Source: a virus. Taken from it: a stretch of DNA of 31,691 nt. Positions 10,746 through 29,944 of this stretch are shown piece after piece. How positions within the stretch are numbered: position 1 is the first letter of the stretch; the number at the start of each line of letters is the position of its first letter. The notes below the pieces were generated by a model that ran no database searches, was not told the origin of the DNA, and saw nothing but the letters and a program-made list of their open reading frames with translations. The stretch covers positions 1-31,691 of the IMG/VR virus record IMGVR_UViG_3300032291_003484; one strand, 5' to 3'. Position numbers and translations under genes: made by a program.

Positions 10746-11080
10746 GCCCCGGCGTTTACATCGTTCGCGCCGACATTTGCGACGCCTGCCCGACCCCCTG
10801 CGCTCGGCAAACCGACCCAAGCCACTACGGCGATCCCTGCGTTGCCTGTCCCGCCACCCCTCCGCGCTGGGGCGCATTTGGCAAATGCGCGTCCGGCACG
10901 CGGCCCGTGCAAATACCCGCCAAGCCCGCCAGCCTGCGCGGATTGGGCGACTTGGTTGCCGTCGTTGCTGACCCCATCGCCAAGACCATCGGCCTCAATA
11001 AGTCAAAATGTGGCTGCCAGTCCCGTCAGGAGTGGTTGAATCGGGCGGTCCCATTTGCGCCCCCGGATTCCGCGCCATAA
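10742..11080 (+). CDS. Small Cys-rich tail-module protein (probable metal binding)
   Basis: A 112-aa protein with a GTG start at 10742 overlapping the previous stop (GTGA). It has CDACPTPC near the N-terminus, then DPCVACPATPPRWGAFGKC, and near the C-terminus KCGCQSRQEWLN. The paired CxxC/CxxCP pattern suggests zinc or iron-sulfur binding, and C-terminal motifs of this type recur in small phage proteins. Its last 86 nt overlap the convergent glycosyltransferase gene. Conservation of the KCGC...WLN motif would show that the frame is used to its end. Function is unknown; a role in tail-tip maturation is inferred from position only. Confidence 0.5.
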   Translation: MSPGVYIVRADICDACPTPCARQTDPSHYGDPCVACPATPPRWGAFGKCASGTRPVQIPAKPASLRGLGDLVAVVADPIAKTIGLNKSKCGCQSRQEWLNRAVPFAPPDSAP

Positions 11081-12716
11081 ACAGCGCCCGCCCCCGGTCA
11101 TATCGGTTCTCGTCGTTGTTGCGCCGATACGTCTCATCCCATTCTGCCTTCCCAAAGAACGGGTGCGCGTGCTCGAAAACCAGCGACGCGCGCCGGTCAA
11201 TCACCACGCCGTCCGCCCATGCGCGGTGCGAGAACTCGTTGTCGGAAAACACGGATTCGTAACCCTCGAAAAACAGCTCCCCCTGCGCCTCCAGCCGCGC
11301 CCGGTTCAGGATCGCCATGCAGAGGAGCGAGTCCTTGCGCGCGCCGTCCGACACCGCCAAAACAGCCGGCCCGGTCACGCCCTCGAATGCGTCCAAGATC
11401 GCCCGGTCCCACCCGGCCGGCGGCGTCCAGTCATCCGACAGCTGCACGAGGATTTGCCCGTCAGCCATCCGCGCCGCCGCATTCCACGCCCGCACGCAGG
11501 AGCCCGGCTCGACCACGACGTGCTTGAACTGCTTCGCCAGACCCATGCTGGCTTCGTCGTCGGAATCGACGGCCATGATATACTCGATTAAATGCGGATT
11601 TACTGCCGCCCCCATCCACCGCTCGCGGCACTCCCATGCCTTTTGCGCCCGACCGCGCGTCGCATGGAGCAAGGTGATTTCCGCCGGACTTTCCTCGAAA
11701 GGAGTGATTCCGTTCAACCGCTCGCACCGCTCCAGCAGGTCCGCGCCGTGCCACCCATACCACTTCGCCTCGAACGTCCACGGCCGGCGCTCGTCCGGAG
11801 GAATCGGAATCGCCACCATGCGCCGCGCCAGCTCAAGCGCCCGCATCGGCTCGCCTGCTTCGAGCGATGCCAGCACGGCACCGGCCAAGGGCTCGCGCAG
11901 CTGCGGCATCTCGACGATGCCACGAGCAAACCAGTTCAGCGCATCCTTCGGCTTCTTCGCCAGCCGGCCCATGTTCATCAGGATCTCGAAACGGAACGTC
12001 TCGTGGAGGTTCGGCCAATCCAGCGCGAGCAAGCCGAACTCCCGCGCCTTCTCTTCCGAACGCGCGTAGAAGTGCTCCTGGTGGACGTAGAAGAGCTGGG
12101 AGCCGCCGTCGCGCAGGGCATTCGAGAGAATGCGCAGGTTGCGGTCGTGGCTGCGCGGCTTCACCGCGAGCGGCGAATGAACCCAGACCGGAGCGTCAAC
12201 GGAGATCCTCTTGTCGCCCTCGCGCGTCACGAGGTTCTCGTGCACCGGAAACTGCCAGCGCCGCCCCGCCTCGAACAGGCTGCGCCGGATGCACCGCTCG
12301 CGCCACGGCGCCTTGTTCGTGCCGGGAACGTCATAGGTGAAGAGCAGGAGATCGGCCTCGGCCTTTTCACACGCCTCCAGAATCGCGCGAGGCTCGCCGC
12401 GCAGGGTGTCGTCGGCGTCAGCCCAGAAGATCCAGTCGCCCGTGGCCAACTCGAAAGCCTGGTTGCGCGCGGCCGCGAAGTTGTCGACGTGCTTCCACTC
12501 GCTCGCGCTGGCGGCGTTCCGGTAAATGCCGATCTGCAACTCGACGCCGAGTTCGCGGGCGAGCTCGTGGACGAGGTCCATCGTCGCGTCCGGCTCCTGC
12601 GCCCCGATGGCGCGAACGACGCAGAGCTCGTGGAACGAACCAGCAAAAGACCGGAGGCAGCGCTCGATATGCGCGGCCTCGTTTCCGACTATCATGGCGA
12701 GGGAGACTTTGGGCAT
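10995..12716 (-). CDS. Two-domain family 2-type glycosyltransferase
   Basis: A 573-aa protein. The start at 12716 (MPKVSLAMIVGNEAAHIERCL) is chosen because the family begins with this strand. An upstream in-frame start would cover the divergent gap. The N-terminal GT-A domain has the metal/nucleotide-sugar motif D100-A-D102-D103 (WIFWADADDTL) within about residues 1-220. A helical TPR-like middle follows (about 220-370). A second GT-A-like domain contains AVDSDDE and LVQLSDDW (about 380-500). The usual 'VVDTGS' of the first domain reads CVVRAIGA, so one common Asp is absent. It would transfer sugar to a protein, lipid or polysaccharide acceptor that cannot be deduced. It is the only minus-strand gene in the structural region. 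Confidence 0.8.
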   Translation of the reverse strand: MPKVSLAMIVGNEAAHIERCLRSFAGSFHELCVVRAIGAQEPDATMDLVHELARELGVELQIGIYRNAASASEWKHVDNFAAARNQAFELATGDWIFWADADDTLRGEPRAILEACEKAEADLLLFTYDVPGTNKAPWRERCIRRSLFEAGRRWQFPVHENLVTREGDKRISVDAPVWVHSPLAVKPRSHDRNLRILSNALRDGGSQLFYVHQEHFYARSEEKAREFGLLALDWPNLHETFRFEILMNMGRLAKKPKDALNWFARGIVEMPQLREPLAGAVLASLEAGEPMRALELARRMVAIPIPPDERRPWTFEAKWYGWHGADLLERCERLNGITPFEESPAEITLLHATRGRAQKAWECRERWMGAAVNPHLIEYIMAVDSDDEASMGLAKQFKHVVVEPGSCVRAWNAAARMADGQILVQLSDDWTPPAGWDRAILDAFEGVTGPAVLAVSDGARKDSLLCMAILNRARLEAQGELFFEGYESVFSDNEFSHRAWADGVVIDRRASLVFEHAHPFFGKAEWDETYRRNNDENRYDRGRALFMARNPGAQMGPPDSTTPDGTGSHILTY

Positions 12717-12757
12717 TCTCGCCGCGAGCCGTAAAAGTTTACGAAACGCGCGCTTGC
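12717..12757. promoter_or_regulatory. Divergent gap with a palindrome
   Basis: Only 41 nt separate the leftward glycosyltransferase start from the rightward gpW-like start. The gap holds the dyad CGTAAA-AG-TTTACG at 12730-12743, with 6-bp arms and a 2-nt centre. It must contain the 5' signals for both genes. The dyad could be an operator or a small hairpin. No consensus -10/-35 pair is clear. Confidence 0.4.
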
Positions 12758-13006
12758 ATGGCGCTCGCAAACCCCTTCATCGGCCTCGACTCGGCCACTC
12801 TAACCACGCTCAAAACGCAGGCCGTCGCGGCGCTCTCGGCGATCCTGACCAACCAGAGCTACTCGCTGAACGGACGCAGCGTCACCCGCGCCAATCTCGC
12901 CGAGGTCAAGGACATGGTCGGGCAAGTCCAAGCCGCACTCGACATCGCGAACGGCAACACCGCCGAGGTCACCTTCGTTCAATTCAACAGCCCCAACACT
13001 TGGTAA
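12758..13006 (+). CDS. gpW-like head-tail joining protein
   Basis: An 82-aa protein with an N-terminal helix (LTTLKTQAVAALSAIL), a beta hairpin around QSYSLNGRSVTRANLAEVKDMVGQVQ and a second helix. This is the helix-hairpin-helix layout and the 'NGRSVTRA-x-L' phrase of lambda gpW family proteins, which close the portal vertex and prepare the head for tail joining. It lies directly before the portal gene with 1 nt between them, exactly the lambda W-B order. Its placement after the tail genes is unusual. Confidence 0.8.
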   Translation: MALANPFIGLDSATLTTLKTQAVAALSAILTNQSYSLNGRSVTRANLAEVKDMVGQVQAALDIANGNTAEVTFVQFNSPNTW

Positions 13007-23035: not shown

Positions 23036-23229
23036 TTGGCGGCCTCCTCGTTTCGCTTGGTGACCATTGCATCGGCGAGCTGATAACATGCGGTAGCCAT
23101 GTCTTCGGCACTGGCCGCTTGATTAAGATGTGGGTTGGCGTGTAGTCCTGCGGCGACTGCCGCCGCAAAAAAGTCGCGGAGGGTCATGCCGCTAGAAACA
23201 TCGTTCGGAAAAGCATATTGTGCACTCAT
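23032..23229 (-). CDS. Small conserved phage protein of the MTLRDFFAA type
   Basis: A 65-aa protein, MSAQYAFPNDVSSGMTLRDFFAAAVAAGL..., ending in ACYQLADAMVTKRNEEAAK. Short proteins with 'GMTLRDxFAA' and a terminal 'AYxxADAMxxxR' helix are frequent in phage early regions and have no assigned function. It lies between the Gp157-like and Sak4-like genes with overlapping stop and start codons. Confidence 0.7.
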   Translation of the reverse strand: MSAQYAFPNDVSSGMTLRDFFAAAVAAGLHANPHLNQAASAEDMATACYQLADAMVTKRNEEAAK

Positions 23230-27619: not shown

Positions 27620-27822
27620 AACCATACTACTACGTTTACCGACCCGGAAATCTTCCGCCTACCATCAAGCACAAGACCTTCGCCGAGGCCCAGGCCGAAG
27701 CCGAGCGCCTCGCCGCCAAGCACGTCGGCACGCCCTTCGAGATCCTGAAGGCCGTGGCCATCTCGCAGGTGATCAGCCCTGCAACGACCCTCTTCATGGA
27801 TGGCTGCGAGGGTGGATTTTGA
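27616..27822 (+). CDS. Small hypothetical protein
   Basis: A 68-aa protein starting MKPYYYVYRPGNLPPTIKHKTFAEAQAEAERLAAKHVG. The 'YYVYR...P..KH.TFAEAQAEAERLA..HPG..FEIL' plan is frequent among short phage proteins. It overlaps the previous gene by ATGA and ends on the A of the next start codon. Function unknown. Confidence 0.6.
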   Translation: MKPYYYVYRPGNLPPTIKHKTFAEAQAEAERLAAKHVGTPFEILKAVAISQVISPATTLFMDGCEGGF

Positions 27823-28370
27823 TGACCTACCAAGACAGAACATTTTGCACCGGCGGCACGCCGCTCTGCGCCAAGTTTGCCAGCTGTCCAAAGGCGCTCA
27901 CGACCGAGCACCAGAACCGCGCCAAGCTCGCCGGCCTGCCGGTCACTCTGTTTTCGGCCCCAACCTGCATGCCCTGCTACGTCGATCCGGCCGCGCCCAA
28001 GCTGCCTCCGCCACGCGCCACCAGGTTCCCTATGTCCTCCGTGCCGGAGTCTCGCTGGCGCGAGCTATTCAGCGCCCGGCCCATGATGACGAACATGCAG
28101 ATCGCGAGGCTCATCGGCTGCTCGAACGTCTCCGTTGGCACCGTCCGCCGGCGGCTGGGCTTCGACGCCTTCCCCGCCGGCGGTCACTACCGGCGCACCC
28201 GCTGCCGCGCCGATGCCGATAGGCTGGCGAAGCAGCGCCGGCCGGGCGAGACCCTCATTGCCCTGGCCGGGCGCGTCGGCCTGACTGAGGGCCAGATCTA
28301 CCACATCGCGAACACCAATCGCGACCTGTTCCCGGCCAAGCCAGGCAACGCCGGGAGGTCGCGCAGGTGA
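27822..28370 (+). CDS. Cys-rich helix-turn-helix protein
   Basis: A 182-aa protein. The N-terminal part has CTGGTPLCAKFASCPKAL and TCMPCY, which could bind zinc. The C-terminal part has one or two helix-turn-helix-like segments (MTNMQIARLIGCSNVSVGTVRRRLGF and LAGRVGLTEGQIYHI). It is likely a regulator or DNA-binding accessory protein closing the early rightward operon. Immediately after its stop the composition turns AT-rich, marking the edge of the integron-like insertion, and the end of the gene overlaps the truncated minus-strand frame. Confidence 0.55.
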   Translation: MTYQDRTFCTGGTPLCAKFASCPKALTTEHQNRAKLAGLPVTLFSAPTCMPCYVDPAAPKLPPPRATRFPMSSVPESRWRELFSARPMMTNMQIARLIGCSNVSVGTVRRRLGFDAFPAGGHYRRTRCRADADRLAKQRRPGETLIALAGRVGLTEGQIYHIANTNRDLFPAKPGNAGRSRR

Positions 28371-28563
28371 AATGTCTCCAGTGTTTAATCTCAGAAACCA
28401 AATCAGAATCTTTATTTATGAATGACCTCAATTCCTCCAAGACCTCCAAACTGCCTTTTATCTGCTTTACGCCAAATTCAAGTTCGGGCGGTAGCAGCTT
28501 CAGCATTTCTTCCGACTCCCGAAGTAGGTTTTGGATTTCGTGGTCGTTATTTAGGGCGTCCAT
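28255..28563 (-). pseudogene. Cassette gene with truncated/replaced 3' end
   Basis: The frame starts at ATG 28563 (or GTG 28590), shortly after the attC site. Its first about 62 residues look like a real, acidic helical protein (MDALNNDHEIQNLLRESEEM, then GSLEVLEELRSFI). From about 28371 leftward it runs antisense through the end of the phage gene and becomes Arg/Cys/Gly-rich nonsense (RRCLAWPGTGRDW...). The natural 3' end and its own attC are therefore missing. The product is unknown and may still be made as a chimeric protein. Confidence 0.55.
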
Positions 28564-28605
28564 TCGATTATTGTTGGTTGGTAAAGTCACGATGCATTTT
28601 ATTCT

Positions 28606-28703
28606 GCCGAACGTCAAAGCTCAGCCGCGACTATGCTTGGCGCGGAGCCTGCGCAGCAGGATCCGTGACAAGCATAGTCGTTGGCTGCAGCGCCTGGTTA
28701 GGC
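28606..28703 (-). repeat. attC: attC-like integron recombination site
   Basis: A 98-bp imperfect palindrome. The outer core boxes are GCCTAAC (minus strand, 28703-28697, matching RYYYAAC) and GTTCGGC (28612-28606, one mismatch to GTTRRRY). Inner boxes are GCTGCAGCC and GGCTGAGC, where the left one has one extra base, as in the 2L box of true attC sites. The central 12-bp arms CGACTATGCTTG / CAAGCATAGTCG (28628-28639, 28669-28680) enclose a 29-nt spacer with its own CCTGC-GCA-GCAGG hairpin. Orientation from the extra base agrees with the flanking frames. Confidence 0.8.
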
Positions 28704-28706
28704 TCA

Positions 28707-28868
28707 TTAGGATTTTGCTTTCTGTTTTGCTACGACCTCGCGCCACTCTTCGACGCGGATCTTTCTATCAATCAGTCGCCGAATGCGATCGACGTTATAC
28801 GCGTGGTTATGATTTCTGAAATAATACAAAATAACCGTGGGTGGCCTATCTGGATAAATGGCATCCGA
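28707..28868 (-). pseudogene. 3' end of a broken cassette gene
   Basis: A frame open from 28868 to the TAA at 28709-28707 encodes 53 residues (ILYYFRNHNHAYNVDRIRR, then RKIRVEEWREVVAKQKAKS). It looks like a genuine protein end and stops 3 nt before the attC core. No good start codon lies in the open part. Across the TAG at 28871-28869 the same frame continues upstream as DWLGECLIDQEEPKRKTLFF before another stop. The gene therefore appears broken by a nonsense codon and probably a frameshift. Family unknown. Confidence 0.5.
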
Positions 28869-29068
28869 CTAAATAAAAAACAGGGTCTTTCGCTTGGGCT
28901 CTTCCTGGTCAATCAAGCACTCTCCAAGCCAGTCGGAATGTCTTGTTCTTCAGCGATACCTTCTTTTTCTGATTCATCTTCCACGAGTGGAATGCCTGCT
29001 GCATCTCGAAGTCGGAAAGTGCGGCAGCGCCGCGCAAAGGCCCGCGAATGAGGCGCACGCGGACACGA

Positions 29069-29196
29069 TTGGACAAACCCGTGCCGAAAATTAAGCCGCA
29101 ACCAGTCAAACGGTTGCGGCATTTTTTTACAAGATTGGACAAGCTGGACAAACTTTGGACAAAACTTTTGTCCAGTGGACAACATGCCTTGTCCAA
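29069..29196. repeat. Cluster of TTGGACAA-type short repeats
   Basis: Seven copies of an octamer related to TTGGACAA occur in 128 nt: direct at 29069, 29135, 29144 (CTGGACAA), 29155 and 29175 (GTGGACAA), and inverted (TTGTCCA) at 29168 and 29189. The copies at 29168 and 29175 form the perfect dyad TTGTCCAGTGGACAA. Spacing is irregular. Candidate roles are iterons of an origin, operator sites or subterminal repeats of a mobile element. Confidence 0.7.
29095..29128 (+). terminator. Intrinsic terminator
   Basis: A perfect 9-bp stem GCCGCAACC / GGTTGCGGC with an 8-nt loop is followed by A and seven T residues. It would stop rightward transcription just downstream of the cassette insertion. The A/T-rich left side (AAAATTAA) may give weak activity leftward. 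Confidence 0.85.
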
Positions 29197-29399
29197 ATGG
29201 TGCAAGCTGGTGCGGCATCGCTGGTTGCGCTGTTTTGTATCCGTGCCGCAATTACAAAAAACCCAGTCAGAAAGTGGTAAGGCGGCGCGGGCGCTTACGC
29301 TGCGCCGCCTTCCCTGACAGGGCGGATTCTAAAAACGAAGTTAGAGACGACGCGTCAAGACCTTTTTTTCGATCAAAGCGGGTTCTTTTTTTCTTTTGA
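29184..29399 (+). CDS. Possible small Cys-rich protein
   Basis: A 71-aa frame from ATG 29184 (in-frame GTG at 29175). The first 25 residues, MPCPNGASWCGIAGC...YPCRNYKK, have the compact C-x7-C-x4-C-x5-C layout of small Cys-rich phage proteins. The rest runs through a strong hairpin (29279-29311) and a T-rich control stretch and ends in Phe repeats, so the true protein may be shorter or absent. Confidence 0.3.
   Translation: MPCPNGASWCGIAGCAVLYPCRNYKKPSQKVVRRRGRLRCAAFPDRADSKNEVRDDASRPFFRSKRVLFFF
29279..29311. other. Strong hairpin without T-tract
   Basis: AAGGCGGCGC and GCGCCGCCTT form a perfect 10-bp stem around a 13-nt loop. It is followed at once by a smaller CCCTG-A-CAGGG dyad. There is no T-run right after it, so it may be an RNA structure or a factor-dependent stop rather than an intrinsic terminator. 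Confidence 0.6.
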
Positions 29400-29452
29400 A
29401 ATCTTTGATTTATTGCTTGCAAACAATCAAACGAGCCCGCAAGGTCTGGCAC
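29396..29452 (+). promoter_or_regulatory. Promoter/operator region of the last rightward operon
   Basis: An AT-rich leader with a TTGAAA -35-like hexamer (29396-29401) and a nested dyad at 29404-29431: outer arms TTTGATT / AATCAAA, inner arms TTGC / GCAA around TT. It begins 49 nt before the first ATG. No consensus -10 is obvious. The dyad is a good candidate operator for one of the small DNA-binding proteins in this operon. Confidence 0.55.
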
Positions 29453-29632
29453 ATGAACAACGCAATCACCGCCCGCCTGTCCTCCCTAAGCACCGACGAG
29501 ATCGCCGACATCGCTGCCAAGATGGCCAACAACCCAAGCGACGAAGCAACCATCGTTTTAGAGGCTGCCCTTAACGTCCTCGAAATCAAAATGACCGAAG
29601 CCGATTTCGTCCGTTTCTGCGAAAAGCTCTAA
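29453..29632 (+). CDS. Small acidic hypothetical protein
   Basis: A 59-aa helical protein, MNNAITARLSSLSTDEIADIAAKMANN...ALNVLEIKMTEADFVRFCEKL. It is the first gene after the operator-like dyad. Its stop shares a base with the next start (TAATG). Such short helical proteins are frequent as the first gene of phage operons, but no function is recognised. Confidence 0.6.
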   Translation: MNNAITARLSSLSTDEIADIAAKMANNPSDEATIVLEAALNVLEIKMTEADFVRFCEKL

Positions 29633-29817
29633 TGAAGAGGGCGCTGGCAATGGAGCATCTGCGCTGCGCCTTTCGGCGCGGCGATTTGGAAACCGCAACG
29701 CGAGTTTACATTACGCACCGCATCTCATGGCAAACATACCGGCAAGTTCAACGCGAGGTGGCCGAAGAAAAGGGGCAGGCCGTCCGCTTGCCCCAGCCCG
29801 CGCCGGAATCACGGTGA
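29632..29817 (+). CDS. Small basic hypothetical protein
   Basis: A 61-aa protein (MKRALAMEHLRCAFRRGDLETATRVYITHRISWQTYRQVQREV...). It is helical and basic. Its last 91 nt overlap, in another frame, the start of the next gene. Both look plausible; the overlap suggests dense coding or that one is translated weakly. Confidence 0.45.
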   Translation: MKRALAMEHLRCAFRRGDLETATRVYITHRISWQTYRQVQREVAEEKGQAVRLPQPAPESR

Positions 29818-29933
29818 GGGTAGACACCGCCACCGCCGCCCGTTTCGTGGCCTATTGCGCGGCCAGCAAGATGAGCCAATCGCAGGCTTTCGCCGAGTGG
29901 GTTCGCCGCCTGCCGAACGCTGGGCAGCTCTGA
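29727..29933 (+). CDS. Ribbon-helix-helix-type DNA-binding protein
   Basis: A 68-aa protein. The N-terminal arm STRGGRRKGAGRPLAP is the 'GGRRKGAGRP' basic motif seen before many small RHH repressors. It is followed by a strand (GITVRVD) and two helices (TAARFVAYCAAS, SQSQAFAEWVRRL). It likely acts as a dimeric repressor; the nested dyad at 29404-29431 is a possible site. Confidence 0.6.
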   Translation: MANIPASSTRGGRRKGAGRPLAPARAGITVRVDTATAARFVAYCAASKMSQSQAFAEWVRRLPNAGQL

Positions 29934-29944
29934 GCACCATTTCC

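Follow-up and report, generated by a model that had tools for sequence, protein, structure and literature searches.

A solitary integron attC site of the Opitutaceae type in a phage genome

A complete integron attC site of 98 nt lies at positions 28606-28703, on the minus strand, of a 31,691-base virus record (the whole of this stretch of DNA is called the window below). It is a genuine member of the subtype used by the chromosomal integrons of Opitutaceae (Verrucomicrobiota). We favor an origin, with a probability of about 0.85, in which this Opitutaceae-type attC and a slice of about 681 bp of a cassette array were acquired by illegitimate recombination and not through insertion by the integron integrase (IntI).

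The record encodes a major head protein, a portal protein, helicases and a Sak4-type annealing protein, and both flanks of the site are collinear with related viral contigs, which bears out an earlier note that had placed an attC in a phage genome. A search of the 31.7-kb record with TIGR02249 at E 0.001, a loose threshold at which ordinary tyrosine recombinases are also matched in all 14 control genomes, detected no integron integrase; no other tyrosine recombinase was matched either. The record, which may be incomplete, thus holds neither a complete integron, defined by intI with its attI, nor a CALIN (at least two attCs without intI): its one site is a solo attC. The attC subtype suggests Opitutaceae as the probable phage host, and distant capsid and portal relatives lend this weak support; these relatives in Opitutaceae genomes, which for the capsid include G076 and G046, share only about 23-33% identity with the phage proteins. 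The window also carries, at 10995-12770 on the minus strand, the strand opposite to that of the structural genes, a 591-aa two-part glycosyltransferase-like gene, with PHROG glycosyltransferase matches over residues 20-328 and 364-558.

The attC site and its relatives in Opitutaceae

The site has the following elements, with its top strand corresponding to the minus strand of the window:

28606-28703, minus strand: attC site, 98 nt (covariance model, 94/98 identity, fold)
28697-28703, minus strand: R'' box GCCTAAC (sequence; columns mostly invariant in an alignment of Opitutaceae sites)
28683-28691, minus strand: L'' box GCTGCAGCC, with one extra base (sequence and fold)
28619-28626, minus strand: L' box GGCTGAGC (sequence and fold)
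28606-28612, minus strand: R' box GTTCGGC, expected cut G^TT

Read along the minus strand, the order is GCCTAAC, CAGGC, GCTGCAGCC, stem and loop, GGCTGAGC, TTTGAC and GTTCGGC, that is, R''-L''-stem-L'-R', with CAGGC as the spacer between R'' and L'' and TTTGAC as that between L' and R'. The bounds are exact, as the span runs from one core box through to the other. GCCTAAC matches RYYYAAC; GTTCGGC departs from GTTRRRY at one position (C for R), and the same variant is also found in intI-linked Opitutaceae arrays. The inner boxes differ by one extra base in L'', the top-strand G at 28688, which is unpaired in the folded strand. The bottom strand (plus strand of the window) folds at -36.8 kcal/mol, with a z-score of -7.1 against dinucleotide shuffles; for a longer minus-strand stretch, z is -4.3 against such shuffles. 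The paired core boxes, asymmetric inner boxes and palindromic arms noticed earlier can therefore all be read in the sequence, and the bottom-strand folding that had been proposed as a check gave the expected unpaired base in L'' of a foldable single strand.

A covariance-model search had also been proposed. We used a model, R1, trained on 26 attC sites from Opitutaceae arrays. It matches the window strongly, with 107.8 bits on the minus strand (E about 2e-30, a rough value) versus 46.2 bits on the plus strand, a difference that makes the orientation clear, and it scores at one place only, 28606-28703. Both sides have changed with pairing kept at 18 of the 33 pairs of the model, which also detects attCs of gammaproteobacterial arrays (L031, L074). 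Because the training sites were found largely with motifs from the window's own site, we read the R1 score as subtype membership and not as an independent discovery; given this choice of training sites and the rough E-values, our argument leans less on the score than on the arrays and the intI beside them.

The nearest relative of the site, identical at 94 of 98 positions and of the same length, is found in an Opitutaceae MAG (L081), where it separates two cassette ORFs and a further attC of this type comes after it. The central 35-mer of the site is present in six of 120 Opitutaceae genomes. One of these, G076, has five matches at 1294-1303 kb and an intI at 1305.6 kb (TIGR02249, 383 bits against a cut-off of 265); R1 gives 22 matches in this genome, and all those among the matches listed fall at 1294.7-1304.6 kb, in one cluster beside intI. 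Two further genomes (G046 and G094) each have an attC site and intI on one contig, and R1 reveals array clusters in three others (G119, G036 and G002). The sites in bacterial genomes stand in tandem, after each ORF and in a single orientation. Elsewhere in these Opitutaceae, G065:C1 and G051:C1 each carry several near-identical partial TIGR02249 matches (frames of 335-342 aa), suggestive of a family of recombinases or transposases present in multiple copies.

A degenerate 20-mer of the R''-L'' end, scanned against genomes, was found in 95 stretches; these come from many phyla, and many can be seen to be cassette arrays in tandem. An Rfam search of the window gave no match, and neither the R''-L'' pattern nor the exact L'-R' end was found in viral contigs. 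A 17-mer from the central loop had one viral match (L100), which lies within unrelated sequence and was set aside as due to chance.

The insert and the related phages

Comparison with two close viral relatives of the window, L003 and L004, delimits the segment that contains the site:

27822-28370, plus strand: phage gene directly upstream of the insert, with weak helix-turn-helix similarity, conserved in L003 and L004
28368-28370, plus strand: TGA that marks the left junction and ends the upstream phage gene as its stop codon (from comparison with L004 and L003)
28371-29051, no strand assigned: 681-bp insert, an internal piece of cassette-array DNA whose right edge could be off by several bases
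28371-28563, minus strand: next cassette gene, 5' part only (MDALNNDHEIQNLL...), interrupted by the left edge of the insert
28707-28868, minus strand: upstream cassette gene, 3' part only, 53 codons without a start; TAA 3 nt before R''
29049-29051, plus strand: second TGA, right junction (compared with L004)

L004 has the empty site (9215|9218): the sequences corresponding to window positions 27821-28370 and 29066-29370 abut there, with 2 bp between them. At the same spot, L003 has an unrelated stretch of 862 bp with a different gene. Taken together, the empty site and the other sequence identify 28371 to about 29051 as an insert at a naturally variable spot. Its GC content is 47.7%, versus 62.4% in the rest of the window; since about 2.6% of stretches of this length elsewhere in the window are equally low, composition alone is weak evidence. 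The TGA at both junctions forms a 3-bp microhomology that is compatible with microhomology-type joining, and could be due to chance. No core box (RYYYAAC/GTTRRRY) was seen at either edge, and neither plasmids nor phages gave a BLASTN match to the insert.

Two other segments distinguish the window from its relatives. Positions 29371-29939 are also absent from L003 and L004, whose flanks join with about 4 bp of overlap, which makes the region a mosaic hot spot. About 176 bp at 23050-23225 are missing from both relatives as well; the flanks there overlap by about 18 bp, in what looks like an insertion or a deletion between 18-bp direct repeats.

Along the minus strand, the insert reads as the 3' end of a gene, an attC and the 5' end of a gene, the order and normal orientation of an ordinary array (L120, L166, L121). 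The earlier note had described a cassette-like frame stopping 3 nt before the site and another of the same orientation beginning after it; both frames are there, the second starting at 28563, 42 nt beyond R', and both proved to be truncated. The upstream fragment is possibly already decayed, and it has no meaningful family match. The insert thus lacks what makes a mobile gene cassette, an intact ORF with G^TT at one end and attC at the other. We do not claim an AbiU2/HEPN identity for the downstream fragment, whose Pfam score of 22.1 bits is below the cut-off of 26.8, and PADLOC and NCBIfam gave nothing meaningful for the cassette fragments. A plus-strand ORF spanning the whole insert (28422-29051) was rejected: its attC part is the antisense of the repeat, and the minus-strand frames are, by eye, more protein-like. 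The search for the flanking cassettes in host integrons suggested by the earlier note brought no support: their proteins were found in none of 160 Opitutaceae genomes and none of 388 genomes of the phylum, and no donor with both flanking genes was seen among them, an empty result that shows little as the search had no positive control.

Routes of entry into the phage

In the scenario that we favor, an ancestral phage would have recombined illegitimately, perhaps in a microhomology-type event, with array DNA whose source was probably the host. An internal slice of about 681 bp, comprising the tail of one cassette gene, an attC and the head of the next, would have landed just behind the stop codon of a phage gene. 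The position of the left edge inside a minus-strand cassette ORF and the lack of a core box at the edges argue for such a capture rather than for an IntI-mediated insertion. An intact attC, a subtype that adjoins intI in hosts and the ability of IntI to act on secondary sites of the G^TT type speak for an alternative, in which IntI would have inserted one or more cassettes at a secondary site of the phage and later deletions would have trimmed the ends. We consider this unlikely. Had IntI inserted a single cassette, the phage sequence would be expected to start again at the G^TT of R' (28611-28612). R' is followed instead by 235 bp of foreign sequence that stops within an ORF, and the insert would have had to be trimmed twice, in separate events, to reconcile this, and the edges without boxes, with the action of IntI.

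In topological terms, a circular phage genome that has one attC amounts to a single large cassette, and the phage might use the site as its attachment site, lysogenising into the integron array of the host by means of the host IntI. CTX-type phages use the host XerCD, and this use of the attC would be analogous. The lack of any matched tyrosine recombinase in the record leaves room for such a use, as does a Vibrio prophage bounded by attC sites (PMC9892861). The site is absent from close relatives of the phage, however, and we regard the proposal as very improbable. Still less weight is given to an assembly of phage and bacterial DNA into a chimeric contig. The record is a metagenomic contig without a coverage figure, but the backbone on the two sides of the insert is that of the same phage and is collinear with L003 and L004, such that a chimera would need two joins at one phage locus; the different insert of L003 further indicates that this locus varies naturally. 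The least credible alternative is that of a dispersed palindromic repeat (REP/BIME/MITE-like) merely resembling an attC, which was raised in the earlier note. In its favor, the site forms a long, imperfect palindrome, and many phyla have the core 20-mer. Nevertheless, the site occurs once in the window, its core boxes are conserved and its stems covary, and bacterial sites of the same type follow ORFs in tandem and in one orientation. REP and BIME copies are dispersed genome-wide in intergenic spaces; the host sites are clustered in arrays, and the adjacency of these arrays to intI in several genomes in practice excludes a repeat of this kind.

Under the favored capture by illegitimate recombination, the insert is at present probably cargo without function for the phage. 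The attC is a putative substrate that could be used if the phage enters a cell with an active integron integrase, and the entire circular genome would then act as a single cassette. The phage has no intact cassette to deliver: with truncated genes on both sides, one attC and no intI found, the idea of a movable cassette in this phage is not supported.

Integron components in other phages

An L'-R' end pattern was found in 37 viral contigs, many of them with model-supported attC arrays. Several of these arrays are worth mentioning on their own account. L208 represents the early part of a temperate phage genome, with genes for integrase, RecT, exonuclease, RusA and dUTPase, and has at least eight sites between small genes. 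In L207 (9678-13493), a 172-kb viral contig with PhoH and Clp protease genes, attC sites flank a restriction-modification pair, in which an N6/N4 DNA methylase accompanies a restriction endonuclease of the HindIII family (PF09518, E 6e-106). Five phage or viral attC-like arrays (L208:318-3266, L192:1421-4747, L194:268-3701, L209:997-2559 and L184:158-1787) look mostly inverted relative to flanking genes, with gene stops in or near the R' box. When the longest ORF between neighboring sites was compared with the attC orientation, 14 viral arrays gave 35 inverse and 19 normal intervals, a count in which intervals within a contig are non-independent and many ORFs are short, versus 1 inverse and 34 normal intervals in four bacterial arrays. 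We take this inversion as a lead and not as a result. With such longer attC arrays in phage contigs, a role of phages in carrying cassettes can be tested directly.

Phage-borne attC sites are not new as such. In the survey of Qi et al. (2023, PMC9892861), 21 phages had integrons or parts of them, including complete integrons, CALINs and attCs that were active experimentally, being recombined with IntI1; phages of Vibrio, Shewanella, Tetrasphaera, Polaribacter and Pseudoalteromonas are among its cases. Thus, the suggestion in the earlier note that phages can carry and move cassettes holds as to carriage, which was already known, and is not supported here as to a movable cassette. The same survey described Vibrio phages with fragments of sedentary integrons, proposed off-target homologous or illegitimate recombination as the entry route, and does not mention Verrucomicrobia in its text; a literature search for integrons combined with Verrucomicrobia or Opitutaceae returned nothing relevant. 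As it required at least two attCs per CALIN, solo sites such as ours would have been overlooked.

The closest bacterial counterparts are the sedentary chromosomal integrons of Opitutaceae, with an array in G001 (L081-L120) and the intI-linked arrays of G076, G046 and G094. The phage attC resembles their sites in length (98-99 nt), core boxes, extra L'' base and central TTGTCACGGATCCTGCTGCGCAGGCTCCGCGCCAA motif; it differs from their arrays in being single, inside a phage, between truncated cassettes and with no intI detected. Like the phages of Qi et al., some of which carry attCs from sedentary integrons of their hosts, the window contains a phage-carried attC for which an illegitimate entry route is suggested; unlike them, it is solitary, of the Opitutaceae type and from a lineage absent from that paper. 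It is a further example of a phage-borne attC: a phage whose hosts are likely Verrucomicrobiota would have taken up part of a host integron array, and related phages, with an empty site in L004 and a different insert in L003, can be compared directly.
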